This document shows, piece after piece, positions 9,424 through 57,311 of a stretch of 64,000 nt of DNA. The notes under the pieces are model-generated. The model was not told where the DNA came from. It did no database searches and saw nothing but the letters and a program-made list of their open reading frames with translations. The stretch is from Bryoerythrophyllum caledonicum. Lineage: Eukaryota > Streptophyta > Bryopsida > Pottiales > Pottiaceae. The stretch spans positions 3,500,180 to 3,564,179 of the forward strand of contig OZ020526.1 in the NCBI GenBank assembly GCA_963971425.1. Direction: 5' to 3'. Position numbers and translations under genes: made by a program. Numbering within the stretch: the stretch's first letter is position 1; each line of letters opens with the position of its first letter.

Positions 9424-11379
9424 CTAAGCGTCCTCCATGGTGGTGTCATGGTCAGCAGCTAATAATCCGTTGGCAATCGGTTGCTCCTCTGGAATGGGCG
9501 CTGCTCGGGTGATGCACTCAATCAAGGAGGTGTCGCCTTTGCTCACTGCTTCGTCTACTGGTGTCCTATCATATCTGCAAAAAAACAAATGCAAGGGTGA
9601 GAATCATAACAAGGAGATCATTGAAGAAGAGTGAAGGGTCTCCAAAAGCATTTACCTATTGACTGCGGAGACATTTGCCCCTTGGGAGATAAGAAACTCG
9701 ACAACCTGCAAATATCGTCCCAGGATCATTAGTGTGCACGCTAAACTCCATCCCATACAAGAATGTAGTACTTGCGAGAGACTGTTTAGGTTTTAGCATA
9801 GGTGAGTAAACATTTTCTTATGACACTCACAGGTTTGTGTGCGTTGAGAACTGCATAGTGCAGTGGGGTGTTCTGCTCCATGTTGCACATATTTACATTC
9901 TGCAAATAATGCAAGTGAATTGTTTCAGTTAGTTGAAGAATATCAACAAATAAGTTGATTGATGAGTGGGAAGGTACTACTTACGGCTCCATGCTCAATC
10001 AGATATTTCACGACGTCAAGATGCCCATTTGCCGAAGCCATATGAAGAGCTGCAAACAAACACTCCATCATCGCGAGTAACAAAAGGTTTACAAACAACA
10101 CAGGAGTGGTGTTGAGAAAATGCAGTGTTTTACGTACCAGTTCGACCTTGAGTATCTTGGGAGCTTACAGAAGTCCCTTGTGCGAGAGAGCTCTGGACGT
10201 CTTCCAAATCTCCATATCTGGCAGCCTGCAAGCACACGAATCCCTAAATCCGCTGCATTCCTTTCGATGTTTACATCGATCTACCTACTAGGATATTCTT
10301 TAAGCCAAATATGAGCATTTCAAGGCTATTTCCAGTGAAACTTACTCCTTGACACCTCTGCATTCTGGTAAACCCTTAAACCCTACACCCTATCTCGAAC
10401 TCTGCACTATAACTTTATTCTTTCAATCATCCCTTGGATATCGATTGCATACACTTTGAACCACGACTTTTTCAAGACTATTTCCAGCGGGACCTTGCTC
10501 CCAGTCCCTTGACAGACTACATTTTGGAACTGAACCTTAAACCCTAAACCCTAAACCCTCACTCGAAACGTAAAATCAGATTTTCGCCCCGAAATCATCT
10601 CCAAAATTACTCCGATTTCACTCCATTCTAATCAGCTTAAACCCTAAACCCTCACTCGAGACCTAATACCAAATTTCCACCCGAAATCATCTCCAAAATC
10701 ACTCCGATTTCACTCCATTCTAATCAGCTTAAACCCTAAACCCTCACTCGAGACCTAATACCAAATTTCCACCCGAAATCATCTCCAAAATCACTCCGAT
10801 TTCACTCCATTCTAATCAGCTTAAACCCTAAACCCTCACTCGAGACCTAATACCAAATTTCCACCCGAAATCATCTCCAAAATCACTCCGATTTCACTCC
10901 ATTCTAATCAGCTTAAACCCTAAACCCTCACTCGAGACCTAATACCAAATTTCCACCCGAAATCATCTCCAAAATCACTCCGATTTCACTCCATTCTAAT
11001 CAGCTTAAACCTAAAGCCTCACTCGAAACGTAAAATCAGATTTTCGCCCCGAAATCATCTCCAAAATTACTCTGATTTCACTCCATTCTGATCAGCTTAA
11101 ACCCTAAACCCTCACTCGAGACCTAGTACCAAATTTTCACCCCGAAATCATCTCCAAAAATCACTCCGATTTCACTCCATTCTAATCAGCTGAAACCCTA
11201 AACCCTCACTCCAGACCTAAAACCAAATTTTCACCCCGAAATCATCTCCAAAACCACTCCATTCTAATCAGCAGCGCTGAAAGGAAATTGCAATTGCGCA
11301 CCTGGAGCAAATCGCCGACTGGAGGCGGAGTCTGGGGTTGATCTGGCGCAGGATCCGCGGGGTGCACCGGCACTGCCAT
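9424..11379 (-). CDS. Small ankyrin-repeat protein
   Basis: Six exons in coding order: 11379-11302, 10225-10138, 10049-9985, 9899-9831, 9705-9656 and 9574-9424, with GT-AG borders and matching phases, giving about 166 residues. The protein starts MAVPVHPADPAPDQPQ, a Pro-rich leader. About four ankyrin repeats follow: AARYGDLEDVQSSLAQG, GRTALHMASANGHLDVVKYL, NTPLHYAVLNAHKPVVEFL and DRTPVDEAVSKGDTSLIECI. It ends with an acidic tail DHDTTMEDA. The size and Pro-rich start resemble single-domain plant ankyrin proteins and yeast Yar1-type chaperones; a binding role is inferred and the partner unknown. The start is the first ATG, because the open frame upstream contains no ATG. Intron 1 (about 1.08 kb) is mostly a minisatellite. 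Confidence 0.9.
10528..11276. repeat. 92-bp tandem minisatellite carrying telomere motifs, inside intron 1 of the ankyrin gene
   Basis: About eight tandem units. The marker taatcagctt recurs near 10629, 10721, 10813, 10905, 10997, 11089, 11183 and 11265, a period of exactly 92 bp for most units. Each unit starts with aaaccctaaaccctcactcg, two plant telomere units (CCCTAAA), followed by a segment ending in ttcactccattctaatcagc. The first unit has three telomere units. On the gene's coding strand these read as TTTAGGG. The four central copies are nearly identical, which suggests recent expansion. Confidence 0.93.
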
Positions 11380-14905: not shown

Positions 14906-14911
14906 TCTCCT

Positions 14912-15307
14912 TGTTAAAGTAAAAGTCAACTTAAAAACGATCGGTAGTTTCTATATCCGCATAAGGTAAAAGGAGCTTATGTTTCTATATCCGCTCAAAG
15001 TAAAGTGAGCTTGTAGTTAACTCCACCTTCTATGGTGGGAGGAAAGTATATAAGACAACTCTCCCACAGAGTTGAATACACTTCTCCATAGCTAATGTAT
15101 TTCAAATATATTTATGTTATTTGCATCTTTTCTCCAGTGGGCATTGTTTTAGTAGTGGAACGAACAGACACTTTATTCACTCCGGCCTCTTTTGGAAACC
15201 GGAGTTCTTCTTCTTCTTCTTATGTTATTTGCTCTCTCTCTTTTATATTTTGATTTCCCTAGAGTTTGTAGCTCTATTTCCTTACGGAATATAGCTCCAT
15301 CTTAACA
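14912..15307 (+). repeat. Copia 5' LTR
   Basis: It is 396 bp from TGTTAAAGTAAAAGTC to CTTAACA. It contains a 108-bp segment, between two copies of tatgttatttgc (15113 and 15221), that the 3' LTR lacks. This fits a deletion between these 12-bp repeats in the 3' LTR or its parent copy. Confidence 0.9.
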
Positions 15308-15378
15308 CGTTATCAGCACAAGGCTCTATACATCCCTGTTGCTTCTTTCCTTCTTCCTATTTTACTTTACTTCTTATC

Positions 15379-16225
15379 ATGGCTGCACCTGCACCAAAGA
15401 GGGCCAAGGACAACAAGGCATGTGTGCAACTTCTCCTATTTGAAGCTCTGGAGGCAGATGGAAGCAACTAGTTACTACATGCAATGGAGCATCTATGTGA
15501 AGGCATTTTTTTTCCGCGCGGAGGAGTTGGAGGGTACTTTGCAGTCAGAGTCACTAGAGAATCTCCCATCACCTTCGAAGTGGAAGGCACTCCTCAACTT
15601 GATGAGGCACTTGGACATCTCCCTCCGCTAGCAGTACATCCAAGTAGACAACCCATACAACCTGTGGCAACAACTGGAGGCCAGGTTCCATTATGAGAAG
15701 ACTATCTTTTTCCCTCAAGCTTGGAGTGAATGGATTCATCTCAGGGTGATGGACTTCTTTGACCTCTTGACTTTCAACGCGGAGCTTCATTGCATCACAA
15801 CCCAACTCCGACTTTGTGGAGAGAAGATTGAGGAGCAAGAACTCATAGATAAGACTCTATCTACTTTTCCTCCTGTTTCTACTATTTTAGCCCAACAGTA
15901 CTACAACATAAAATTTATGTCTCATTCCAAGTTAATGTCTTAGCTCTTGCTTGCTGAGAAGTGATCACTACTTCTATTGAAGAATGCGGAGTCCAAGCCT
16001 ATGAAGGAGACACACACTGTGGAGATGGCGGCATCAAAACCACGTGACAAGGGAAAGCAACAATTAAAGGAGCCTCAATAGTCTTCCTCAAAACCACAAA
16101 TAAGTCATCTGGAAAACCTAACTTTGGAAATTCTAAGACTAATAAGTCTAAGTCACAGCGTGAGACTCGTGATTGCCTTAAATGTGGTAGAACTGGACAT
16201 TTAGGTATGGATTGTAGAACTTGAG
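15379..16225 (+). pseudogene. Copia gag remnant with zinc knuckle
   Basis: It starts at the ATG at 15379 (MAAPAPKRAKDNKAC) but is soon broken by stops and frameshifts. A segment at 15,746-15,940 matches the style of UBN2-type copia gag (DLLTFNAELHCITTQL, then EEQELIDKTLSTFP). At about 16,172-16,213 the frame reads CLKCGRTGHLGMDC, a retroviral-type CCHC zinc knuckle, followed by a stop. It would have encoded the capsid/nucleocapsid protein; here it is non-functional. Confidence 0.75.
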
Positions 16226-16521
16226 AATACTGTGTAAAACTGTATCAAGAGTTGCAATAGCTTAAGCCCAGGGATAGGGAAACTCATACACTTGATGCTT
16301 CATCTCTTGATAGTGTAGATCCCGAAAATTATATGGTGTGCATGAATGAGCCCAAGGTGCAATGTGATGTTGCTTTGTTGAACAGCGCCACCACTCATAC
16401 GATCTTGCGAGATCCGAAGTACTTCAATTTTTCTAGCAAAGCTGAAGCCTAGCAAACCTGTGATGTTATCACAATTGCTGGAAGACGGAATTTACAATTT
16501 CATAAGGGCCAGACAACCATA

Positions 16522-17457
16522 GTGTTGCCTAGGGGGACCCCCCTCAAGTGTAGACATGCGATGTACTCTCGCAATGCTACCCGGAGTTTGATCAACTACC
16601 GCAATCTCAAAGCTAATGGGATACACCTCCACACAACGGTAAAGGATGGTGAAGAAGCCTTAGAACTTAGGCAAGGGACTCAATGCCTTGCCACCGCACA
16701 TGCGGAAGCGAATGGCTTATATCGGCTGAAGATTTCAAGTATCGCTAATGACAGTCCATCCACAACTAAACATCCCAAGGGATTTGTTTTCTCTGTGATT
16801 TCTCCAACCAAGGTTGGAATCTGGCATGGCAGGCTTGGGCATCCCGGAACCACGATGTTTCGGCACATGCTACCAAAACTCACAGGACATGAAGTCTACC
16901 TAAGTGATGCCAACAAGGTGGATGACTGTGTTGCTTGCTCTCAAGGAAAGCTCATCCAAAGGCCATTGCGGTGGAAACTACCGACGGAGCTTCCACTAAG
17001 ACTTCAAAGACTGCAAGGGGATGTCTGTGGACCTATCAATCCTCCATCAAGACCATTCAGGCTCAATATAGACCAAGCTAGTCCACTTTCCGCTCCCATC
17101 ATGGGGCGAAGTAGAACACTTGATGATCCCTACCATCCTTGCGAGGAGGAGGAGGAGTTCTATGACAGGAACAAGTATCTCGCAGTCGTAGGGGCTCTTT
17201 TGTACTTGTCTACATATACGCGCCCGGATATTTCCTTTGCGACAAGTGTACTTGCCATGCACAACCAAAAGCTCGGAGTGCGTCAGTGGAATGGAGTGAA
17301 GCATCTACTCCGATACCTCAAAGGTACAGAAGACTTGGGCCTACACTACACCAAGGATGGAACCCTAGAAATCATTGGGTATGCTGATGTTGGTTTCAAG
17401 TCTGATAAAGATTCTGGAAAGTCACAGACCAGCTACATCTTCCTCAAGATATGTTGA
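16522..17457 (+). pseudogene. Copia pol remnant: pre-integrase region fused to the RT/RNase H end
   Basis: One 311-codon open frame joins two parts of pol. The first part has the pre-integrase zinc-binding pattern WHGRLGHPG ... DDCVACSQGKL and the start of integrase (DVCGPINPPS). Near codon 180 it switches directly to the C-terminal polyprotein: YLAVVGALLYLSTYTRPDIS, WNGVKHLLRYLKGTEDLGL and a truncated RNase H (YADVGFKSDKDSGKSQTSY). The integrase catalytic core and reverse-transcriptase active site are missing. The join keeps frame, so this is a clean internal deletion in an otherwise fairly intact copy. Confidence 0.85.
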
Positions 17458-17906
17458 CTAAAGCTCTCCTAGCCCATACACATAGAAGGCTAGTACGGAA
17501 GGCTGGGATGGGGTTGCTTCATGAGTTAAATCCTCCATACGTTATACTTTTTTGTAGATCTATGGATTTTTCCTACTTTAGATTTTAGCCATGGATATAG
17601 TTTTTAATGAGGTAACTCCAGATCGAGCATGAGTATTAAAGTAAAAGTCAACTTAGAAACGATCGGTAGTTTCTATATCCGCATAAGGTAAAAGAAGCTT
17701 ATGTTTCTATATCCGCTCAAAGTAAAGTGAGCTTGTAGTTAACTCCACTTCTATGGTAGGAGGAAAGTATGTAAGATAACTCTCCCACAGAGTTGAATAC
17801 ACTTCTCCATAGCTAATATATTTCAAATATATTTATGTTATTTGCTCTCTCTCTTTTATATTTGGGTTTCCCTAGAGTTTACAGCTCTATTTCCTTACGG
17901 AATATA

Positions 17907-19528
17907 CAGTGTCTAGCAAAACTGAGTCAAGTTCTGGTAATTCGAAATTCAATTACCAATGTAGGAAAATTGGCAATAGATTTGCACAAATCATAAATTG
18001 TACAAGATAGCAATTTCAGTGGGCTACAATTTGATGCAAAAGAAAGTTCTTCTTACATTCATATGTACAAGAAAATTACATTCGAAGGAAACTGTGTCTC
18101 TTGACTCAGTTTTGCATCATCAACCAAAAAACAACTTAATATTTTGTCTACTTGCCTTTGGCAGCTAAAACAGCTTGGATTCGTTGTGGCATGCTTTCGT
18201 ACAATCTCCTACACTCCTCTGGTTTTATAGAAGCCCAACACTCCTCAATATGTTCTGACAACTCTAAAATTCCTTTTGGAGTACTTTCATACTGGTTAAG
18301 ACGACGTTTCAGCCTTACCCGAAGATGTTCAATTGGATTTAGGTCTAGAGATTGTGCAGGCCACTTAAGAGCATCAAAGTTTTGTGATTTTAGCCATTGG
18401 CGAGCACTTTTTGCTGTATGTTTGGGATCATTGTCATGCTGAAATATCAAATTCGAAGGATCAAGATCATATGCCATCACCGTGTACATTAAATCTCTTT
18501 GCAAAATTTCTTTGTACTGATGTTGATCCATTCTTCCTTCGATTCTACAAAACATGCCTGGGCCTTGAAATGTCATACAACCCCACAACATGACAGAACC
18601 ACCACCAAACTTTATAGTTTGTTTCACTTCTTTTAAATCAGAAGACCGTTCATTGCGAATCCAACACCAACTGCGACCATCAGAGCAAAATCAATTTACC
18701 TTTGTCTCATCACAGAAGATGATGTGCTCCCAATCATGAATGGTCCAATGTTCATGGCGCCTAGCAAATTCAAGTCGATCTTTGATGTGTCTGTGGTTCA
18801 ATTTCGGTTTCTTCTGCTTCACTTTTGATCTCAGTCCTCCTGCACGTAAGACCCTTCTCACCATATCAACACTTACAGTAACTTGGCATTCCTCACGTAC
18901 ATGCTGGGTAGCACATGTCGCAGTTTCAAATCCTCCTGATGTGACAGCTCTAATGCATGCTCTCTTTTGAGCATCTGTTAATACTTGTGTTCTACCACCA
19001 CTACTAGTAGAAATATCAGACAATCTCTTCCTTCTAAGTCTTGCAACATGACTTTGAGACACCTGCAACTCACTTGCTACATCCCTTGTGGATCTACCAG
19101 CTTACAACTTCACCAAAATAGAGTTATCAAGGTCTGTATGAGCGCTTGTAGAAAGCTCCTTCAAGTACACCATGTTGAGTAATAAAAGTATGCTAACAAT
19201 GTGCATGGAGTATTGCAACATTGTAGTTTAACATGCCCAAGCCAATTTGAGCTCATACATCCTCAATGCATTTGTGGCATGCAAAACACATGTCTTGGCT
19301 CATGAGTCCTCAATGGCATGCAAAACTGAGTCAAGAGACACAGTTTCCTTCGAATGTAATTTTCTTGTACATATGAATGTAAAAAGAACTTTCTTTTGCA
19401 TCAAATTGTAGCCTACTGAAATTGCTATCTTGTACAATTTATGATTTGTGCAAATCTATTGCCAGTTTTCCTACATTGGTAATTGAATTTCGAATTACCA
19501 AAACTTGACTCAGTTTTGCTAGACACTG
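17907..19528 (-). mobile_element. Tc1-type (DD34E) DNA transposon nested in the copia 3' LTR
   Basis: A 1,622-bp element lies between TA duplications (17905-17906 and 19529-19530). Its terminal inverted repeats are 211 bp each (17907-18117 and 19318-19528), start CAGTGTCTAGCAAAACTGAG, and differ at about four positions by my reading. The motif gcaaaactgagtcaag occurs at the outer end of each repeat and, reversed, at its inner end. Between them is a transposase frame on the minus strand. Ends, target site and protein all point to the Tc1 branch of Tc1/mariner. Land plants usually carry DD39D mariner-like elements instead. Confidence 0.93.
18148..19173 (-). pseudogene. Tc1 transposase, frame interrupted by two nonsense codons
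   Basis: From the ATG at 19173 to the TAG at 18148-18150 the frame is exactly 342 codons, the usual Tc1 transposase length, with no frameshift. Two stops interrupt it: TAA at codon 24 (19102-19104) and TGA at codon 161 (18691-18693). The N-terminal half has helix-turn-helix DNA-binding sequence (STRDVASELQVSQSHVARL). The catalytic residues are Asp 155 (CDETKVN), Asp 247 (HDNDPKHTA) and Glu 282 (DLNPIEHL), with exactly 34 residues between the last two, and a GGGSVMLWGC motif between the first two. As written the gene would not make a full protein. Confidence 0.92.
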
Positions 19529-19590
19529 TAGCTCCATCTTAACACTCCTCATGGGCACTTAGGGTTAAAAAACTTGACCGAACTACTTCT

Positions 19591-19705
19591 CGTCGCCCCC
19601 TCGTCGTCTCATCCGTCGCCCCCTCGTCGTCTCGTCCGTCGCCCCCTCGTCGTCTCATCCGTCGCCCCCTCGTCGTCTCGTCCGTCGCCCCCTCGTTGTC
19701 TCGTT
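19591..19705. repeat. 23-bp minisatellite upstream of the PRP22 gene
   Basis: Five copies of a cgtcgccccctcgtcgtctc unit start at 19591, 19614, 19637, 19660 and 19683. Alternate units read catc and cgtc at the end, so the true higher-order unit may be 46 bp. It lies between the copia element and the helicase gene. A short CAG run follows near 19,779. Confidence 0.9.
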
Positions 19706-19908
19706 CGTGGGACCAATTGAGCCCGGTTCCTGAACGAACATACTCGGAGCTCATCTCGCGTCTCGCATTGAAAGCAAAGCAGCAGCAGCAGCAGCAGTCA
19801 CTGAGGAGGAGCATTTTCAGTCACTGATCACAGCAACACTCGCATGGCGGACGGACTCCGAGTTTTGTGACGGTCACGCCACCGTCTGCTCAGTATTAGT
19901 GTAGGAAA

Positions 19909-19998
19909 TCCGAAACCCTAGCATTATTTTTTCAGAGAGGGAGGCAGAGAGAGAGAAGGGAGAGAGAGAGAGAGAGAGCTAGGGTTTGAGGAGGAGCG
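19909..19998 (+). promoter_or_regulatory. Telo-box and GA-rich leader of the PRP22 gene
   Basis: The sequence gaaaccctagc at about 19912 is followed by a gagagagag-rich stretch (19935-19978) and agctagggtttgag just before the ATG at 19999. AAACCCTA motifs plus GA-rich leaders are frequent near transcription starts of plant housekeeping genes. Function is inferred. Confidence 0.45.
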
Positions 19999-22900
19999 AT
20001 GGACGGGCTGAAGAAGCTGGAGTATCTGTCGCTGGTGTCCAAGGTGTGCACGGAGCTGGACGCGCACATCGGGTGCGGTGACAAGACGTTGGCGGAGTTT
20101 ATAGTTGATCTGGCGCAGAAGTGCGGCACGCAGGAGGAGTTCGGGCGCAAGCTGAAGGAGAACGGCGCGGAGATGCCGGAGTACTTCGTGAAGACGCTCC
20201 TGACGATCATTCACGCTATTCTGCCGCCGCTGAGCCGCGCGGAGCGGGAGAGGCTGGGGAAGGGGATCGGCGGAGACAAGGACTTGAAGCGCACGGCGTT
20301 TCCGGGGCTCGCCGTGCCGGATAGCAAGCAGCGCGTGCGCGAGTTGGAGGAGGAGTTGATTGCGGACGGGGTTGAAGTTCGGGACGCGGAGGAGAATAAG
20401 GTGGCGCCGCGCGGGAGGCGCGACAACAGCGAGCGGGAGCATCGGCGGGATAGGGAGCGAGGTAGCCGTGACGAGAGCCGTGACGATAGGAGAGGGAGAG
20501 GGAGAGAGCATGAGAGAGAGGAGTATAGGGATAGGCGCGAGGATGGCAGAGGGAGCGGGCGAGGGAGAGAGCATGAGAGGGAGGATTATAGGGATAGGCG
20601 TGAGGATGGCAGAGGGAGCGGGCGAGGTGGAAGAGATGACGGAGTTGGCGACAGGAGAGGGAATGGGAGAGGAAGGGGCAGGGAGGAGGAGGACGGGGAG
20701 CGGAAAGCGGTGGCACCGGCGATGGTGGACGAGCCGGAGCTGTACGGGATATACAAGGGGAGAGTGTCGAGGATTATGGACTACGGATGCTTTGTGCAGT
20801 TGTTAGGCGTTAGGGATCGGAAGGAGGGGCTGGTGCACGTGTACAATATCGCGTCACGGCGCGTTGTAAATGCCAAGGATGCCGTGGAGCGGGACCAGGA
20901 GGTCTGGGTGAAGGTGCTGTCCGTGAGCGAGAAGAAGATTAGTCTGAGCATGCGCGACGTGGATCAGAAGACGGGCGAGGATTTGTTGCCGATGAAGCGG
21001 ACGACGACGGCGGAGGAGGAGAATTTGCGCGCGAATCCGTCGAGCTCGAGCCTGGCGCCGGAGATGCGGAAGGGGCTGTCCGGGATCACGATTGTGGAGG
21101 AGGACGAGAACACTTCGAATCGGAGGCCGATGAAGCGGATGAGCTCGCCGGAGCGGTGGGAGGCGAAGCAGCTGATTGCGTCGGGGGTTTTGGGAGTGAA
21201 GGACTATCCAATGTACGATGATGATGGGGGAGGAATGTTGTATCATGATGAAGGCGCGGAGGAGGAGCTCGAGATTGAGCTGAATGAAGATGAGCCGGCG
21301 TTTCTCCGGGGTCAGACTCGGTACTCTGTGGATGTGTCTCCGGTGAAGATTGTGAAGAACCCTGACGGTTCGTTGCAGAGAGCTGCCATGACGCAGTCTG
21401 CGCTTGCGAAGGAGCGACGGGAGTTGAGGGAGCAGCAGCAGCGGACAATGCTTGATTCTATTCCGAAGGATTTGAACAGGCCGTGGGAAGATCCTATGCC
21501 AGAGACTGGTGAGAGGCATCTCGCTCAAGAGCTTCGGGGAGTTGGGCTCTCTGCTTATGATATGCCGGAGTGGAAGAAGGATGCGTTTGGGAAGGCTCCT
21601 ACCTTCGGGCAGCGGTCTAAGCTTTCGATTCAGGAGCAGAGGCAGAGTCTGCCTATCTATAAGCTGAAGAATGAGCTCATCAAGGCTGTGAATGACAACC
21701 AGGTTCTGGTTGTGATTGGAGAGACAGGGTCTGGGAAGACGACGCAGATGACTCAGTATCTTGCAGAGGCTGGGTATACTACGCGTGGGAAAATTGGTTG
21801 TACGCAGCCTCGGCGTGTCGCTGCCATGTCTGTGGCGAAGAGAGTGGCGGAAGAGTTTGGATGCAGGCTCGGGGAGGAAGTGGGATATGCAATTCGGTTC
21901 GAGGATTGTACGGGACCAGAGACGGTGATCAAATATATGACGGACGGAATGTTGTTGCGAGAGATTTTGATCGATGATATGTGCGCTTCGTATTCCGTCG
22001 TCATGCTTGACGAGGCTCACGAACGTACTATCCACACAGACGTGTTATTTGGGCTTCTCAAGGGGCTCGTCAAACGCAGGCCGGATATGAGACTCATTGT
22101 TACCTCTGCAACGTTGGACGCGGAGAAGTTTTCGAGATACTTCTTTGACTGCCCTATCTTTACCATTCCTGGAAGAACGTTTCCGGTGGAGATTCTGTAC
22201 ACGAAGCAGCCGGAGACTGATTACCTGGATGCGGCACTGATTACGGTCATGCAGATTCATCTCACGGAGCCTGAGGGTGACGTCCTGATGTTCTTGACAG
22301 GGCAAGAAGAAATTGATACTGCGTGCCAAATTCTGTTTGAACGTATGAAGGGTTTGGGGCCGAATGTTCCGGAACTAATCATTCTTCCAGTTTACAGTGC
22401 TTTGCCCAGCGAAATGCAGACAAGGATTTTCGAAGCCCCACCACCAGGTACAAGAAAGGTTGTTGTGGCCACGAATATCGCCGAGGCTTCTCTCACGATT
22501 GATGGAATATACTACGTCGTGGATCCTGGATTTGCGAAGCAGAACGTATACAATCCGAAGTTAGGTTTAGACTCTTTGGTGATCACTCCGATTTCACAGG
22601 CCTCAGCGAGGCAACGAGCTGGACGTGCGGGAAGAACAGGACCTGGCAAGTGCTACCGGTTGTACACAGAGAGTGCCTATCGCAATGAGATGCTGCCGAC
22701 AACAGTCCCAGAAATCCAAAGAGTTAACCTGGGTTTGACAACGCTGACAATGAAAGCAATGGGAATCAACGATCTCCTGTCCTTTGATTTCATGGACCCC
22801 CCTCCACCGCAAGCCCTTATTTCTGCTATGGAACAGCTATACAGCCTCGGAGCCCTGGATGAGGAGGGACTACTGACGAAGCTTGGAAGGAAGATGGCCG

Positions 22901-23613
22901 AGTTTCCTCTGGAGCCGCCTCTCTCTAAGATGCTTCTAGCCAGTGTAGACTTGGGGTGCAGTGACGAAATCTTGACCATCATCTCCATGTTGCAAGCTCA
23001 GAACATCTTTTATCGACCACGGGAGAAACAAGCGCAGGCGGATCAGAAAAGGGCCAAGTTTTTCCAAGTAGAGGGCGATCATTTGACTTTACTTGCAGTA
23101 TATGAAGCTTGGAAGGCGAAGAACTTTTCTGGTCCTTGGTGTTTTGAGAATTTTGTGCAGTCTCGGTCATTGCGGAGGGCGCAAGATGTGCGAAAGCAGC
23201 TTCTTACAATCATGGATAGGTACAAATTGGATGTGGTGAGTGCTGGAAAGAACTTCACACGGATACGGAAAGCCATAGCAGCAGGGTTTTTCTTCCATGC
23301 AGCACGGAAGGATCCCCAGGAGGGATATCGTACTCTGGTGGAGAATCAGCCGGTTTATATTCATCCAAGTAGTGCTCTATTTCAGAGGCAACCTGATTGG
23401 GTTATCTATCACGAGCTAGTTATGACCACCAAGGAATACATGCGAGAAGTGACTCTGATGGACCCTAAATGGTTAGTCGAATTAGCTCCACGTTTCTTTA
23501 AAGTTGCTGATCCCACAAAAATGAGCAAGAGAAAACGACAGGAGCGCATCGAACCTCTCTATGATCGGTATCACGAGCCAAATTCATGGCGTCTCAGTAA
23601 AAGACGGGCTTAA
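19999..23613 (+). CDS. DHX8/PRP22-type DEAH-box pre-mRNA splicing helicase
   Basis: A 1,204-residue protein in one exon. PRP22/DHX8 helicases act in the nucleus to release spliced mRNA from the spliceosome. Order of parts: an N-terminal helical domain (1-85); a charged Arg/Glu/Asp-rich region (about 145-240); an S1 RNA-binding domain (about 249-320, [20 protein letters not shown]); a linker; and the helicase core. Core motifs: GETGSGKT 574-581 (I), TQPRRVAA (Ia), DEAH 671-674 (II), SAT 703-705 (III), [10 protein letters not shown] 825-834 (V) and [10 protein letters not shown] 872-881 (VI). The HA2 and OB-fold regions follow, with a basic tail [18 protein letters not shown]. Length and the S1 domain identify PRP22 rather than PRP2, PRP16 or PRP43. 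The start fits the conserved N-terminus [17 protein letters not shown]. Confidence 0.97.
20497..20634 (+). repeat. 63-bp duplication coding for the RE/RD-rich region of PRP22
   Basis: Two in-frame copies encode [20 protein letters not shown] and [20 protein letters not shown] (21-residue period including a Ser). They extend the charged linker before the S1 domain. Copies differ by a few bases, so the duplication is fairly recent. Confidence 0.8.
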
Positions 23614-47990: not shown

Positions 47991-50459
47991 TCAAGCCCCC
48001 ATGGCTCCTTGGTACATTTGGTGGTGGCTGTTGTATGCCAGCGCAGCGTTCACATACTTCTTTGGCTTCTCCACCGACCCCGAACTCTTCTGCGGAAAGC
48101 AACAATCCAAAATCAGATATTAGCACACACATTCCAATGTCTACACATAATGAGAAAAAGCTGCATCTAGTGGACTCCTTACTCACAAAGATCTAGAGGC
48201 GACAATAACCGACACCATCTGTGAATGATAGAAACGTTCAATTTTTGCAACATGCAGAAAGTCCAAACAAACAAAGAATTGCTACTAAACACACATCCTT
48301 TGTGCCACTAAACCAATCAAAAGAACAGTACTTTAAACCAATGCCATGTATGATTGCCACGTAGCGCTTGAGGCGCATTTGTATCAGATGACAGGCACCT
48401 AAAGATTTAGTGCTAGTTTGAGGTCGACCTCGGTTTTAGACTAGTGTTGTGCGAAAGGGATGAGCTATGATACCTTTTGGGTGTGCTGTTCGTATTCATC
48501 CCCCTTGTCACTGCCCCCGCTATCGCTATTGGCGACACTAGAAGGGTTGCTGAAGTTGGCCCGCCTGGTCTTCTCCACCATGAGCTGCCGCATGATGGCG
48601 CCCTCTTCGAGCTCGGGATTATTGTGCCAATAGCTGCCGAGAAACGTCTTGGCGCCGTCCAGGCTCGGGAAGTACGGCGGCTCGAAGTAGATCTGCGACA
48701 GCGCTTCCGCCGCAGAAATCTCTGCCGGCGCGGTGGCCTTGTACTCGCCGCTACCCATGACAGCGATCACCAGTTGCTGGTACGAGAAGTAGAACTGCCG
48801 CACCGCGGCCTCCACGGCCTGGAACGCCTGAAGCAGATGAATGGTAGACGAGTGGTACGCCAGCGGCCGGTTGAACGGCGGCGTCACGTGAGTGCGCAAG
48901 CCGTGCGAGTGCAGCAGGTCCATCACCGCCTCCTGAAGGCGCGGCCCACCCTTTGGATCCGCCTCCACACCCACCACTTTCGGCACCAGGTGACGCAGCT
49001 CCTTGCACCCTTTCGTCATTTGCCTCAGTCTCGTGGACCGCAAACAATACGCGCCTGGGGAAAACCAGACCACACGTCGTTAGGGCTTGCTATTTCAAAA
49101 TACGAAAGATATTCGAACAAGAATTCCGCTCCAGGTACGGTGTTAGAGTTTCTTGTAAGCAGACAGGATTCGATCAACAAATGCGCTTCTGGTATGATGA
49201 TAGGGATTGAGCTCTACACAACGGATCCAATCTTGGTCCTAAAAAATTAACTTCTTATGACATACAGATGCATCGTCTCAGACCCTAAACATACAGGTAA
49301 ACTTGGTGCTGGTTGTGAATTGTGTACCTCCGCCGATATGTTCAGTGCTGACGGCGGTGCCATCCTGGGAGATAGCGAGTTCCTCCTTCAGGCGCATGAA
49401 GTCGTCCGGGTCCATGATTTGAAGCAAATCCATTGTAGAGATGAGAAGCTTCCAGACACGCTCCACAATCCAGCAGCTCTTAGCGGCAAGTTCAAAGTTC
49501 CCGGCCTTCACCTTGTTGTCGACGTTCTGGAGTAATCCAGACGCAACTTCCAACCACGCTTCCATGATTTGGTGGACGGTGGAGAGCGTGTGGTCCTCGG
49601 GGTGCCCGGGCATGGATTGTCTGCATGCGTAAATCTGCAAAACAAAAGCATCATCTGCGGTCAGTCGACCAATACAATACTCTAAAACCAGGAACGAAGA
49701 AACTCGGACTCAATGCTGTACCTCGAGTGGTCGGCAAATCTTGTCATACTCGAGCACGGGCTTCGCGGACAAGTTCGGTTCGCCGAGACCGAGCGTGAAT
49801 GGCGAGCGCGCCATGTGACCTTCGATGGCGAAGTGCAGCCGCGTGCTGACGGCTTGCGCCGTCCGCCACGCCGCCAGGCGTGGCAGCAAGCTCTCCTTGC
49901 TGAGCCGGCTCACGACGGGGCGCGCCCCAGACTTATGCCACACCACAGACTCCGTCCCGACATAGCTGCTGTCAGAAAGCGCAGACGTTGGCGCTTCGTC
50001 ATCGCCTTCCACAATACACGACAGAATCTCCAACTGCAAATTCGCCAGCGCCTCCAGCCTCCTCACCCACTCGTCCCGGTCGATGTAGGGGCGCGTGTCG
50101 CACAGCACCCCGGAGATCATCCGAAACACAAGCTCCAAGCTATGCAGCGCCGGCCTCACGAGTCCCTCGTTCTGCCACGTATCGCACTCCTTGCTCCGCC
50201 ATAGCCGCGTGAGCTCCGGGAGGTGCAGGTAAAGCTCGTAGGCCTCCACCTGCGCCGCGGACGGCTGCACCAGCGCCTCGATGTCGCAGTTCGCCAGCGA
50301 CACCGCCACCGGCGGCCCGGGGAACAACACGCCGCCGCAGCTACTCCGTGACCGCACCGCGCTCAACGAGTCCGTCCTACCTACTGGATACTCCGTCCTA
50401 CCTCCAGGATACTCCGTCCTACCTCCAGGATACTCCGTCCTACCTCCAGGATACTCCAT
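47991..50459 (-). CDS. HSPRO / Hs1pro-1-like nematode-resistance protein homologue
   Basis: Exons in coding order: 50459-49722, 49634-49328, 49054-48474 and 48089-47991, about 574 residues. Conserved HSPRO blocks appear in order: YELYLHLPELTRLW, RPALHSLELVFRMISGVL, RPYIDRDEWVRRLEALANLQ, SLLPRLAAWRTAQ, TLGLGEPNLSAKPVLEYDKI, DPDDFMRLKEEL, VEADPKGGPRLQEAVMDL and FEPPYFPSLDGAKTFLGSYW. In Arabidopsis the family acts in basal resistance and links to SnRK1 signalling; the biochemical role is unknown. The ATG at 50459 is fixed by an in-frame stop two codons upstream. The N-terminus has four EYPGGRT-type repeats. If the last intron is not spliced, the protein stops at 48465 after KVS (544 residues). 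I prefer the fourth exon because its acceptor is strong (branch-like tgctaat, then ttgctttccgcag). Confidence 0.9.
50376..50459 (-). repeat. 21-bp coding minisatellite at the HSPRO N-terminus
   Basis: Four tandem 21-bp units (plus strand tcctacctccaggatactccg) encode EYPGGRT three times and EYPVGRT once, directly after the start Met. Conserved HSPRO sequence begins only about 70 residues later. Confidence 0.92.
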
Positions 50460-53320
50460 CAGTCACGCCGCCGATCCCCTCGCAACAACAATCTCACGAC
50501 ACGCTCTCCAAAACACCGAAGGAGTAAAACAACGACACTCTGAACGGAGACGAACTCCGAAACGCAAACATCTCCTGCCCAAACCGATCAGTCCGCACCT
50601 CTCCCCCACCCGATCGCCAATTCAAACCACGTCACACCTGCTAAAGCAACGCCAAGCAAATCAACACACCTCCAAAACTCCTCCTAACCTCAAAACACCG
50701 CGTCCTAATCACCGACGCTCCAAAGACAAACGCCTAGCCGCCACAAACCTCGCAAAACAAACACCTAACATCCAACGCTCTCAAAACACCGCTCCCTAAC
50801 CTCCACCGCTCGGTCTAATCTCCAAATCGCTCCAAAAACATCTCCAAGAAACCGCGTCCGCACCTCCAAAACGCAAATCAAACGCCGACGATGATTCTGA
50901 GACAAGTTCCGATGCTCCGGCACTTGACGCTTTCTTCTCTCCCTCGCTCGCTCGCTGCTTCCGGGGAGAATAACGGTGGTGGCTCCTCGAGAGAATGAAT
51001 CAAGGAAAGGGCGGAGATATACAGGTATATCCAGATCCCTGGCAATAGCAGCAAAGGCACCGGCTCAACAACCAACCTCCAAATCCGCTACACTTCCTGC
51101 GCGCTTTGCCGGATTTATTACAAGCGTAATTACGCCTATTTTCCAATAATTCGAATTTCCGCGTCACCCTCAAAGTCAATTGTTGCGTCGATTCCTCATC
51201 CACTTCGCTACTTACTAGTCACTCCACGAGTCAGGTGGTGAAAGTTTTTAACCGTGGGCCAGATTATTTATGACTCTTGCACCGTTTTTTTTTTTAACTT
51301 TGGATGGGACGGTACATTGAGATTACAGGTGTTAAGTTTCTCACTCTTCTTTCGCATTTCTTTTTTTTAACCCTTTTAGGATGAGAGGTGGAGTGGTTTG
51401 CGGTTTTGGTGGACGGTACTTCTTCTTTGTTTGATTTGCGGCTTGATTTGAGTTATGAGGATAAGTGCGCTTCCAACGAATGCGGTGAGAATGTGCGCGG
51501 GAGTTTGGCCGGCGAACTATGGTGATGTTTGTAGTGATGAAAAGCACCCACTCGTCTTAAGGAGAAGGCCCGGAGTGTACGCGATGCCTTGATGACGGAT
51601 AGCATAATCTACGACCCTCGTCCTTAAGGGGTTTATGAGTTAAATTCAAGTTTCTTCAGACTTGTTCTCACCGTTTTTATTTTAATATAATTTTTTGGGT
51701 TCTTTTTGGGGGGGGGGGCAATGGATATGGAAATGGTTAGTTAGGCAGCATGGCAGGACGTCATCCAGGATGGACTCGTTTTGTCTAAACTGCCTCCAAA
51801 AGCGTGTGCAATTCTAGCACAGATTTCAGGATAAACATCACCAGAAATAGCTTTCAAAGCTGACACCGCGTGGCCGTCCATCTAGGGCTCCCGTACATTC
51901 CACCACTGTTTTAATGATATGAAGGTCTCGCGGTTTAGGGCACGTCCTTGCCAGCTCAGCGTTGCCAGCTTGGAATGGAGCCTAGTCAGATCATTCGGTG
52001 GTGATTTTCGTGGATATTGTTCATGTTAGTTACTCCAACTTGTCTATGGAAGGCTTCGGGAACCTTCATCTTTTTTAAATCACTTTTAATCTAAGAGTAA
52101 AATTCGGTTACTCCGGGGAAAAAGTAAATTGATAAATAAATTCCTTAAATTTAGTATCATATCCTTTTTATATTCCTCGTTTGTAATTGTCCTTTATTTT
52201 TCGTTCGATTTTTTGTGAAATTTTTACACAAATAAATTTTTAAAAGCTAGAGGTTTACTAGAAACTTTGCAAGCAACAGTTAAATTATGCTCCTACAGAC
52301 AAAGTGTTAGTTTCTCTGAAATGTCAGTCAAAACATGAATAAAGAAATGAAGTAACAAAGAAGCGATGTGCAGTGAAACGGTAATAGTGCCCCCCTTCAT
52401 GGCATCTTCGTTCTATGTCCAACACGAAACTATAAACTTTATCATCAAGCAAGGTTTAACTCTTTTTTTAATCAATCTCTTTCTTTTTCTTTTCATTTCA
52501 ATAAGTGACAGTTGATGGAAACATGGGCTGTCTATGTAAATAACAATGCTGGATCTGATTCTAGGACTTTCAATTAAGTTGTCTTACAAATGGAATTTGT
52601 GGAATTGTGAAAATAAGTTGCGAAGAAAGTTCATAAAATTGATGAGGCTCATTGAATTCGGAGCATGTGAGATCTACCAAATATTTGGTGAGGCACCCAC
52701 CTGAAAGATAATATAAATAAACACGTTGCTAAATGTTTATTACCCTTAGTTTGAAAGAATTCTTACAAGTTGGTAAGAACAATCATGGTATTTTCAAATA
52801 ATGAAATTGGAGTGATGACAATTTGATTGTGTGATTTTAGAGTATTCTTTAATCATGGTTACATAATTGGTTTCATAGCTTCTTTTTTCCAGAGGAAAAC
52901 CTCATGTCATGTGCAGGATCCCCATAATTCAAAATTGTATGAGATGGACAGTAAATGCCATTGGTCTTGATGGAAAATACTTAGTTTTTTTTCTGTCCCT
53001 TTTCTTTACCCCAAACAAAAAGAGTTATTAATGAATTTTACATTTTTTTAACACAAGAAAATTAATTCCCAATTTTTTTTAAAGAAGAGGTATGGTAATC
53101 GATAAATTTTGATCCCTTGGGAGATATGTGGTATTATGAATACATGGGTCATTGTGGAACCATTTTCCTGTACCCGGGAAACCAAAACCCCAGGTAGCCG
53201 GTTATTTATAAAAGAGTCAACACAAACTTGATAAAAGGTGGCCTTTTTCATTCTTCAGATGCTCGAACTGCAATATGTCTAACGAACTCTACAACTTCCA
53301 CTAACTAAAATTCCTTCTTC
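50460..53320. other. HSPRO upstream region and AT-rich intergenic DNA
   Basis: 50,460-51,000 is C- and A-rich with many aaaacaccg/ctccaaaac motifs and is probably the leader and promoter of HSPRO. The rest is AT-rich with homopolymer runs (for example a nine-G run near 51,710). No gene is supported. Confidence 0.4.
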
Positions 53321-53323
53321 AGC

Positions 53324-54180
53324 AACAGTAGCAAGGAATTGTTGATTCTTGGATATTGTCTGAAAGGGGCATCCGCAAACGGACTCCGTGTGTTCAATGG
53401 TCCTTGTGCATCATATATCAATGACATTCTACACCAAAATGTTGTTGCAAGGTCACCACATGTTGATGATTGTGCATTCAAGGGTATCCATGATATTGAC
53501 TAGTTTTTTTTTGTTGTCTTATGTGTAAAAGAGGCTCATTGGTTTGCAAGTTCTTTTTTCAAATCATGTCTTGTTACTTTTAATTCCCCCTTTTTTGAGA
53601 GAGAGAGATAGAAGGGGGAGATACGTACCGAGTAGTACAATTAGATCCTTTTAAATTTTTGATGAATAAGTTAGAACATTCACACATTTTATTTTTTATT
53701 ATATTTTGACACAAACAGAGGGACATTCACACATTTTTCAGGTACCGCTGAGCACACGGTTCATGTTTGACCCAGTTGATCACATGATCATTGCCACTGG
53801 CCTGTGGGATAAGCCATGATTTGAAGTAGGATATTAACTAACCTGCTTTGAAATTGGACATCTGATCCATACCATGCAGGTGAAAACTATTACAAAGATA
53901 CAGAGAGTGTGGCCTCCACAAGCCATACGAAAACTGGATTGAGTTATAGCTCAGGGAAGTACCGTACTTGGACTTGTGCTTTTGTCAAAAATGATGAGGG
54001 AGCCCAGATTGCAAGCACTCCCAACAGATTTCTCACCAGAGGGGGACAGAAAATAATGGTTTCCAGTAAAAAAAAAATCCACCTGGCTCATTTTTTTGGC
54101 GTGGCACAAAAAACCAGAATTGACAACAGCAAAAATGGGCAAATCACGACTCACAACCTCGTTGTCACGTTGCCCTGAAT
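53324..54180 (+). pseudogene. Eroded multi-exon gene fragment, family not recognised
   Basis: Three protein-like blocks follow each other, each preceded by an acceptor-like tract: (1) 53,324-53,505, KELLILGYCLKGASANGLRV ... NGPCASYINDILHQNVVARS; (2) 53,742-53,819, VPLSTRFMFDPVDHMIIATG; (3) 53,880-54,010, NYYKDTESVASTSHTKTGLS then YRTWTCAFVKNDEGAQ. Block 1 ends in a stop and block 2 lacks a donor, so it is broken. The order and style suggest a former host gene. I cannot name it. Confidence 0.35.
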
Positions 54181-55098
54181 TTGATGTCAGGTTAAAAAAC
54201 TCAACATGGTCCGCCCCCCAAGTAATATTACTGTAGGAAGAAAGCGAAACGTCCACATGACAGTCCCTCTCTACACCTAATGTAGTGTGCCATATGTCGG
54301 AAAGAACACATTCAAAGACAGATCTCAATGAAAAAAATCTCATAGACGCTTCTCTACAACAACATTACCAAAGTGAAACATAGTATTGAAATTGGCTACT
54401 TGGATAAGTAAAATTAAAAACACCTGGCTTTTTCAAGGAAGCTCTTGTTTTCATTGTCTTAAACCCCTAAAGAACCAAACATCCTACCACAACCCATGCA
54501 TATCATGTGGTGTCAATTTTCAACAACTCTCATCGAAACTAGACTTCCTATGAAGGGGGGGCACTTCTATCCCAATGAAATTAGTTGAAGTTCAAGATGA
54601 ATTGGTGGTCTATACAATAATTGACTTCGCACTCATCCTATCAAAAGAGTAATATAAAAATTATAAAAAAATGCATTCATCATCCAAGTACCTTACTATT
54701 TTTAATACAAGAAACTCAACTCACTAGCAATCATTCCACCTAAACTCCATTCAAAAGAGATAGTTTCCGCCTACAAATCCACATGAAATTGAATGGAACA
54801 TTAACTACTGAGCACGGTGCAGAATTAAAGAGCATGCACATGCACAGCCGACGTGTCCCCCATGTCACCGCAAAAAGTTACTTTTAAAGTTACTTTCAAC
54901 CGCCCCAAACAAGGAATGGGCGCGCCAGCCTGGCACGCAACGTTATCCGACACAAAGCAAGCTGTCTGCCACATCTTTTCAGAAACCCAAAAAGGATACA
55001 AGACAAAAATTAATAAAAAAATTAAACAATACAGTCAAAACTCTTTCTATGTTCCAGGTCGGGAGCAGAAAAATATGACACAGATAGTGGCAAAACAT
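54181..55098. other. Intergenic
   Basis: A cttaaacccctaaagaacc start near 54,460 is probably another decayed member of the TTAA-CCCCTAA family. No gene is seen. Confidence 0.35.
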
Positions 55099-55366
55099 AT
55101 GGGCAGGGAGAATTGACCCCCTCGCTCGTCCTTACCCGTGGGGGCCACGAGGTGGTGGGGCCAAACCTGCCCCCTATTTTGTTTGTAGATGGGGACCTAT
55201 TTATAGAAAAGGAGGAGCCTATAATGTTAAAAATAGCCATAGGCCCCAAATTTGTCAAAAAAAACCTCTAGACTCCCCAAAATAAGAAGGCCAGAAAAAC
55301 GACCCCATGCAATAAAGATGGGGGCACACCTCGGGTAAGAACGAGCGAGGGGGTCAATTCTCCCTG
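55099..55366. mobile_element. Palindromic MITE, 'ggtggg' core family, copy 4
   Basis: Arms: gggagaattgaccccctcgc at the left and the same 20 bases, reversed, at the right, continuing into ctcgtccttacccg / ctcgttcttacccg. The core (ggtggggccaaacctgcccc, agccataggccccaaatttg, aaacctctagactcc) matches copies 1-3. The arms are nearly identical to each other but unlike those of the other copies. Confidence 0.88.
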
Positions 55367-56864
55367 GCCCATAGCATATACAGTGACAAACAAAACTGAG
55401 TACAATTTTTACTCACTTCCATTCAAAAATCATACCATGAGTATAGGTGGGCAAAACCAAAATGTGTACAAATCGAAGTTGTAGTACATGCTGTGTTACA
55501 CAATGCTAAAAAGTTTGAGGTGGAGTTGAATTGTGGTTTGGAAGATATCAAATGCCAAAATAGAGTATGCCTTCATACTCACTTTTGTTCAAGATTGGTA
55601 TGAGAGCTTTCAAAATATACACAATTTGGAATGAAGCCAACTTTCTTCAGTGCTGTGTTTATGGTATTGTAAACCATCATCTTGGACATGTGTATGCCTT
55701 TCATCAATGGAAATCAACCTTTGTGTGCTTGAGATAAATCTCAAATTGTGAAAAAATAGATGTTTTCTTGTGAGAATGGCATTTGATAATCCTTTGTGGA
55801 ATTGATAGCATGGAATATTAGTGGACATCATAAGTGACAAACGTGAATCAATATTGGCCATTATTGCATGTATTTCATTTTCTATTTGAATTTTTTTAGT
55901 ATTCATTAAACTCCTTTATAAACTTGATTATTTATATTGGAATGATGTGATGGTTTTCTTCTTTGACCTTGTTGATGTCACAATGCTCATCAATGGAAGC
56001 TTTCCATCCACCACTTTGATTTCACTTACTTGCATTTTGATGACTTCGTATCATAAAATACTCGATGCTCCATTTTGCTCCTTCTTTTATTTTCATACCA
56101 AAAATAATTTTAATTGCATTCTAAGTCCACATCGTTTTCCACCCACATCAGTAATACATCTACACTATATAAGGTGAACGGTAGTGATTTTACAACATTT
56201 TCATAAAATAAAGATAAGACATTTGAGTTATTTTGAATAGAGCAAGCAAAGTTGCGAGATCTTTATCAGTATTTCTTTGCTTGTGTCAAAATAAAATAAA
56301 ATTAAAAATTAAAAATAAATTAAAAAAATCTTTATCAGTGTCCAAGGGTCATGATCCATCCATGTTGTCATAACATCAGGCTTTTATCATTTGTCTTGTT
56401 ATAAATCATTTGTACATTATGGCATCCACAACTTTTGTAAGGATATTTTTTCCTCAATTCGGTTTATGTTTTGCAACAACTCCGCAGATACTTTTTAACA
56501 AAAAAAGGAGCAGTGGGGCCGGTGTGGTTTGTGGCTCATTCATTTCTCTTGTTTTCAAGGGAAAAATAAATAGACATCTATTGGTACATATTAAGAAGAA
56601 GAGTCACTGACTTGTCATATCTGGTATTTTCAAAAAGAAGTCCCAAAAAAAAAGACAAAGTGCTTCGCGGAGGATGCATTGAGAGGTGTGACTCCTCTTC
56701 ATGAAGAAACCATCATTTATAAAAAGCTACTAATTGGCCTAATCACCACCAATTCCAATAGAAAACAAATCACAAAAAATGAAAGTAAGATGGTTAGTAA
56801 GGTCAGTGTCTTTCGCACCAAAACCTTCATACCAAAAAATGAAAAATTTCTCTTCAAAAACGAT
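55367..56864. other. Intergenic, AT-rich
   Basis: No gene or repeat structure that I can support. Confidence 0.4.
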
Positions 56865-56865
56865 C

Positions 56866-57311
56866 TTTTAACTGTCAAACACCAGTCGGGAATACTGTAT
56901 ACAAGCACGTATTATACTATGTAGAATACATGAAATTCTAAAGCAAGGCTTCGACCTCTGGACTGAAGATTCTTCAACTAACATCTTTCATTCGGAGGTC
57001 ATTTCAATATTTGAACCTTATCATGTTCAAATACAACACCATACATGTAGAATATTGTGGCCACCAATGGCACCTTGTGCCCATAAATGTCACAAGGTGC
57101 CGCTCGTGGCCACCGTATTCTACATATATGGTGTTGTATTTGAACATGATAAGGTTCAGATATTGAAATGATTCCCAAATGAAAGATGTTAGTTGAAGAT
57201 TCTTCAACCCATAGGTATAAGTCTTGCTAAACTTTAATACATTTTTTTGTATCCTACAGAATGAAATACAATCCTATATATACGGTTCTCGACTGACGTT
57301 TAAGGGTTAAA
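56866..57311. mobile_element. Foldback MITE (TTAA-CCTTAAAC family), copy 2, near-complete palindrome
   Basis: Left arm: ttttaactgtcaaacaccag; right arm, reversed: ctttaacccttaaacgtcag. The inner arms are almost perfect: atttgaaccttatcatgttc, acaccatacatgtagaat, then ggccacc..ggcaccttgtg, mirrored around about 57,088. It would fold into a hairpin of about 220 bp per arm. Noncoding. Confidence 0.88.

Follow-up and report, generated by a model that had tools for sequence, protein, structure and literature searches.

A decayed DD34E Tc1 transposon in a copia LTR of a plant genome: a multi-copy family that looks long resident, with terminal arms that look derived

Background

Tc1 transposons of the DD34E type are known mainly from animals and fungi, and the discovery of one inside a copia LTR of a plant raises the question of whether it arrived recently from such a donor or descends from a lineage that its host genome already carried. 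The locus lies in a stretch of 64,000 nucleotides, hereafter the window (G000:C15:3500180-3564179), which belongs to a genome of 437,360,962 bases in 894 contigs. A preliminary description of the window had considered a horizontal transfer from a fungus or animal to be plausible. Our results point elsewhere: the element is very probably a dead cut-and-paste DD34E Tc1 copy sitting in a copia LTR, one member of a multi-copy family whose lineage this land-plant genome already carried long before the present copies spread. More tentatively, we propose that the genome holds a long-lived, multi-family DD34E radiation of its own, in which internal copying of an arm at a transposase-site motif produced a matched-arm form that drove a genome-wide burst.

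Results and discussion

Element structure and insertion site

The Tc1/mariner element occupies positions 17907-19528 (1,622 bp), exactly as first described, and is flanked by TA on both sides; its ends (CAGT..ACTG) and its target-site duplication are those of a Tc1 element. Its terminal features are the following.

17905..17906, no strand: TA target-site duplication, left
17907..18117, plus strand: left terminal arm, arm A, 211 bp, scored at no fewer than 40 genome places
17916..17931, plus strand: outer 16-bp motif of the left arm, exact copy
18100..18115, minus strand: inner 16-bp motif of the left arm, inverted relative to the outer motif
19318..19528, minus strand: right terminal arm, arm A inverted; arm B stands here in the older copies read
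19320..19335, plus strand: inner 16-bp motif of the right arm, the point of the B/A arm switch
19504..19519, minus strand: outer 16-bp motif of the right arm
19529..19530, no strand: TA target-site duplication, right

The left arm and the inverted right arm match at 207 of 211 positions, and the left arm, taken as single-stranded DNA, folds on the 16-bp motif (z -5.2). The insertion interrupts the 3' LTR of a copia element, whose parts are these:

14907..14911, no strand: copia target-site duplication CTCCT, 5' side
14912..15307, plus strand: copia 5' LTR, with the unoccupied site
17634..17906, plus strand: copia 3' LTR, portion ahead of the Tc1 element
19531..19544, plus strand: copia 3' LTR, portion beyond the Tc1 element
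19545..19549, no strand: copia target-site duplication CTCCT, 3' side

The LTR resumes past the insertion, and its two flanks, once joined across the Tc1 element, can be aligned with the 5' LTR, which bears out the nesting at a TA that had been described. The copia interior is short (about 2.3 kb from LTR to LTR), and one of the two copia frames tested matches Pfam gag_pre-integrase. Within this element (14912-19549), the 5' LTR contains about 110 bp that are absent from the 3' LTR and are flanked by copies of TTATGTTATTTGC.

The two copia LTRs differ by a K2P distance of 0.040 (287 sites), or 0.020 per LTR, and the end branch of the Tc1 copy is 0.014; the smaller value for the Tc1 copy gives the order that a nested insertion requires. 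At a substitution rate of 7e-9 per site and year, the ages would be about 2 million years for the Tc1 copy and about 3 million years for the copia element, as orders of magnitude only. We picture a Tc1 copy that would have jumped into a TA within the 3' LTR of the earlier copia insertion.

Genomic surroundings

The right end of the Tc1 element lies about 470 bp ahead of the start codon of a PRP22-type helicase (19528-19999), which extends over 19999-23613. The window also holds a piece of a peptide deformylase, whose best PDB match is 1zxz (an Arabidopsis entry), a piece of a ribulose-phosphate epimerase, both Hs1pro-1 domains (48465-50462) and two snoZ102_R77 snoRNAs. From the presence of Hs1pro-1 and snoZ102 together we take the host to be a land plant and, at a guess, a moss.

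Elsewhere in the window, positions 10490-11319 hold a tandem repeat whose step is 92 bp (eight listed copies of 184 nt that overlap one another, at 62-100%), and a 138-nt inverted repeat at 56942-57228, 87% complementary with its halves 11 nt apart, makes a long hairpin. A second Tc1-type end, from another family, is found at 55379-55486 (TACAGTG..CAAAACTGAGT). This end occurs in at least 40 places of the genome (40 of 182 candidates scored), all 40 at 95% or higher. Some of them form inverted pairs spaced at about 0.86, 1.0-1.1 and 1.53-1.58 kb, which may correspond to complete elements and to shorter forms derived from them; a search of 53000-59000 turned up no partner end of at least 18 nt. 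A relaxed blastn search of the Tc1 element against the rest of the window returned matches at shuffle level only (best 32.6 bits, shuffles up to 34), one of which is the end of this second family, whose search pattern was built after that hit had been seen.

Transposase and its decay

The transposase is encoded on the minus strand:

18136..19173, minus strand: Tc1 transposase frame, 345 codons and stop, with three nonsense codons
18709..18711, minus strand: catalytic D155, invariant in 121 aligned sequences
18433..18435, minus strand: catalytic D247, invariant in 121 aligned sequences
18328..18330, minus strand: catalytic E282, invariant in 121 aligned sequences

The frame starts at 19173, ends with a stop codon at 18136-18138 and is interrupted by TAA at codon 24 (19102-19104), TGA at codon 161 (18691-18693) and TAG at codon 342 (18148-18150). 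The element in the window is a dead copy. The preliminary description spoke of two transposase parts; these turn out to be one frame broken by stops.

The protein carries both HTH_Tnp_Tc3_2 (PF01498, 6.5e-13) and DDE_3 (PF13358, 2.2e-11), each above the Pfam cut-off, and it matches the Sleeping Beauty catalytic domain 5cr4 (E 5.3e-48) and Mos1 (E 1.2e-05). D247 and E282 are separated by 34 residues, which makes the triad DD34E, as first reported; the DD39D triad of plant mariner-like elements is absent, since 34 residues are followed by E. By homology with Sleeping Beauty and Mos1, an active transposase of this family would be expected to bind the terminal arms, perhaps through the four 16-bp motifs, to cut at the element ends and to insert at TA.

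When compared with four relatives that agree with one another in 246 columns, the window copy shows 16 residue changes, some of which may be common to other copies. Ten of them fit C>T or G>A (one ambiguous), four are reverse transitions and two are transversions; the expected share of C>T/G>A is 0.13-0.29 under transition weights of 1-4 (P 6e-6 to 5e-3). Across 38 young copies, usable columns contain 219 single-copy changes, namely 70 C>T/G>A (0.206 per G/C site), 49 A>G/T>C (0.078 per A/T site) and 100 transversions, and the window copy accounts for two, against a mean of 5.8 over the 38 copies. The excess of C>T/G>A is consistent with deamination of methylated cytosines. We also considered a signature of decay confined to CpG, and the outcome was unclear with only 13 CG columns usable: C>T/G>A changes are found at 5 of 13 CG, 3 of 11 CHG and 62 of 316 CHH sites. 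The window copy would have decayed after its insertion, and a C>T or G>A change could account for each of its three nonsense codons.

Copies of the family in the window genome

A search of the genome with the 211-bp arm A found at least 40 places on 11 contigs, among them the two arms of the window copy (of 128 candidates, 40 were scored), so the element is no chance arrangement. The database protein nearest to the window transposase (P0002, 91%) yielded at least 119 rows in the same genome (4167 candidates, 117 scored). Tallied by eye from the table, 47 of these rows (46 elements) have a protein identity of 88-94%, 12 of 78-81%, one of 68% and 59 of 48-61%; two of the 78-81% rows belong by DNA to the window's own lineage, C7:11910403 (in L022) being a young copy and C4:10793571 (in L079) an older one. 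Among the 30 top rows (L038-L067), eight run through residues 1-345 without meeting a stop; stops are likewise absent from 13 of the 59 remotest rows, two of these 13 being partial.

Ten full copies differ pairwise by K2P 0.018-0.050 (mean 0.037), eight of them starting with CAGT and two with TAGT. Among 35 young copies with arm A at both ends (A/A), TA stands on both sides in 28, as scored by script, and the other seven have another dinucleotide on one side; in at least two of these (L009 and L010) this is because the first base of the element has mutated. An assembly chimera or contamination is a reading for which we found no evidence and to which we give virtually no credence: the element is nested in a copia LTR with an intact target duplication, plant genes lie on either side, copies occur on 11 contigs, and TA borders most young A/A copies. 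The earlier view that the element is part of this genome is upheld on the same grounds.

A core tree was built from 49 of the 53 distinct elements, leaving aside L031 (internal duplication) and L070, L071 and L074 (short cores). Resolution in the tree is low for the most part, and the bootstrap had not converged. Short inner branches connect the 42 young copies almost in the shape of a star, and 16 of them, the window copy included, make up a supported subset. End branches have a median of 0.016 over all rows, and those of five older rows of the same lineage measure 0.059-0.084. Several age layers of one lineage are thus present, and the family looks like an established resident of the genome and not like a fresh arrival.

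A recent horizontal transfer from a fungus or animal, as envisaged in the preliminary description, would leave the host genome without older relatives of the element. Such relatives are there: copies of the same lineage with arm B at 79-87% and cores at 83-86%, along with more distant families at 78-81% and 48-61%. The older layers make the young copies look like offspring of a lineage already present. In favour of a recent transfer are the known distribution of Tc1/DD34E elements, mainly in animals and fungi, and, in the parts of the literature available to us, a length and TIR size close to those of the Pleurotus element TIR_1 (PMC4905642) and the fungal origin proposed for the moss elements PpTc1/PpTc2 and Mariner2_PPa. 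We judge a recent transfer to be very unlikely.

Terminal arms of types A and B

Three copies found by arm A (L003, L005 and L008) have a different right arm, called arm B. All 37 candidates of an arm B search were scored, giving five copies at 95% or higher, 18 at 79-87%, a 75-base piece at 83% and 13 short terminal matches. Arms A and B have in common roughly their outermost 27 bp, as well as the inner motif. The idea that they are diverged forms of one arm found no support in the mid-arm, where they score 5, while shuffles average 3.1 and reach 11.

The young members of the 53 distinct elements comprise 36 A/A, three A/B and six with one arm unread, and the old members none A/A, four A/B and four with one arm unread. 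The 36 consist of the 35 mentioned above and L031, which the script labelled old because of its internal duplication (identities of 93.9 and 95.5% for the pieces). L007, counted among the elements with an unread arm, is A/A beyond an insert of about 3.5 kb, which interrupts this copy outside the transposase frame (L024, G000:C6:13307500-13313000). The sample was drawn partly with arms A and B, and drawing by arm A biases it in favour of A/A; 30 loci drawn by protein alone gave 27 A/A, two A/B and one unread.

Because the old elements that could be read include four A/B and no A/A, A/B appears to be the older form. Ahead of the inner motif, both young forms have the same sequence, and the change from B to A follows directly after the motif. 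The motif was located in 49 of the 53 elements, and the switch falls at it (shared over 18 bp) in 36 of 36 A/A copies. On these sequence comparisons, the matching 211-bp arms look derived in the window genome, a secondary acquisition. The simplest reading, we infer, is that arm B was replaced once by an inverted arm A, with the switch at the shared motif. As judged from the copies, an ancestral form with two unrelated arms, A and B, would have given rise by arm replacement at the shared inner motif to a form with two matching 211-bp arms, through a route such as template switching in gap repair, and this matched-arm form would then have come to make up most of the young copies read. Parsimony on the core tree counts three arm-type changes; a single replacement event may have taken place, and replacement may have been the cause of the burst, both as candidate readings. 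A word search of open-licence PMC papers, which is blind to sequence kinship, found no report of an arm replacement of the A/B to A/A type.

In the 78-81% family, L078 and L080 form a closely similar pair (end branches 0.008-0.009) whose right arm corresponds to arm B over its first 48 bases only, and is possibly a third arm.

Kinship and origin of the lineage

A tree of 134 rows was made by a quick method, with SH-aLRT support only, from 120 database proteins (the best 120 of 759 matches), the window protein, 12 rows from the window genome (G000) and Sleeping Beauty. Three of the 12 rows (L038, L039 and L077) are of the window's own lineage, and the others were hand-picked across the identity range. 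The window and all 12 belong to a single clade with 31 members (SH-aLRT 98), which also contains 18 database proteins, including P0035, 99% identical to L083. All 12 rows were taken from P0002 matches, which favours that neighbourhood; rows outside the clade are 44-59% identical to the window protein, about as distant as the remote G000 families, and for this reason the clustering of the G000 rows is informative. The position of the G000 rows, from which this reading is drawn, suggests a resident plant clade and adds to the case against a recent transfer. In the preliminary description, a tree placing the element among long-standing plant lineages was to count against a transfer: the grouping of all the sampled G000 rows with the window comes close to this, and it accommodates an old transfer as well. 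No relative was found in viral contigs with P0002, with alignment A1 or with a degenerate WPxQSPDLNPIE pattern, nor in GTDB genome contigs with P0002 or A1.

Long residence leaves the question of how the lineage first entered. To us there is an even chance that fungi passed the lineage to a forebear of the host in one or more old transfers, after which it stayed for long and radiated; no direct evidence speaks against this. A precedent has been proposed for mosses (PMC7466625, PMC4905642), and the authors concerned report finding no similar elements in Selaginella or in Marchantia. The long TIR, as in TIR_1 by its partial description, keeps the fungal connection alive; against this, the matching 211-bp arms look derived in the window genome, which makes TIR length a poor guide to kinship with TIR_1. 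Vertical descent of such DD34E elements from early land plants, with many losses, would account for several divergent families in one genome and, as far as the consulted text of PMC4054914 goes, for scattered reports from plants. The published distribution, in the parts we could draw on, is patchy, and Tc1/Mariner MITEs are described as fewer in lower plants (PMC12550479, in part), so we regard vertical inheritance as possible and rather doubtful.

Comparison with known systems

Neither a DD34E element in a plant nor a transfer from fungus to plant is new, because both have already been published. Tc1-like DD34E elements were described in 2014 from a moss and, mostly as fragments, from nine angiosperms, according to the available part of that report (PMC4054914), so the notion that DD34E elements do not belong in plants was outdated; archaeplastid hosts are also listed in the Tc1 family in the portion at hand of a large survey (PMC7325037). 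PpTc1 and PpTc2 of Physcomitrium patens are given as 1.58 and 1.71 kb long, with a TIR of 33 bp and a transposase of 338 amino acids (PMC4054914), and a transfer from a fungus into Physcomitrium has been proposed for them (PMC7466625). Judged by that partial description, our element resembles them as a DD34E Tc1-like element with CAGT..ACTG ends and TA, multi-copy and recently amplified in a plant; it differs in its TIR of 211 bp and its transposase of 345 amino acids. The A/B form, whose two arms are alike only in the outermost 27 bp or thereabouts and in the inner motif, comes nearer to the moss elements as there described.

For the moss element Mariner2_PPa, a transfer from fungi has likewise been proposed, with TIR_1 as its fungal relative (PMC4905642). 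TIR_1, from the basidiomycete Pleurotus ostreatus, is like our element in its 1.6 kb, 214-nt TIRs, TA and DDE_3 and Tc3-type domains; it is fungal, and within the accessible text the likeness is one of length, TIR size and described features only (PMC4905642).

What distinguishes the present genome is the number of its DD34E Tc1 elements, which are layered in age and include stop-free copies that may still work; such abundance goes beyond the pair of moss families and the angiosperm cases, most of them fragments, covered by the part of PMC4054914 available to us. The preliminary description is confirmed as an observation, and its interpretation is partly supported, in the kind of element and its nesting and not in a recent origin from a fungus or animal.

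Sleeping Beauty (SB100X, 5cr4) is related to our element through a homologous catalytic domain. It carries two sites in direct orientation within each TIR (IR/DR). Our motif also occurs twice per arm, but its outer and inner copies are mutually inverted, unlike the IR/DR arrangement.

The element is ordinary in kind, and the arm replacement in a family that later spread is the part worth following. The switch from A/B to A/A is visible across copies, so that the origin of long inverted repeats becomes directly testable here; if it is true, arm copying followed by a burst would show in a concrete case how long TIRs originate and what may make them helpful to the spread of an element. A parallel among known systems is Galileo, of the P superfamily, in which TIR structure also differs among copies, and whose altered copies are ascribed to gap repair that aborts, slips or switches template (PMC4168063). 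Galileo belongs to another superfamily, and the consulted part of that paper shows no replacement of an arm at a shared motif such as our copies suggest (PMC4168063).
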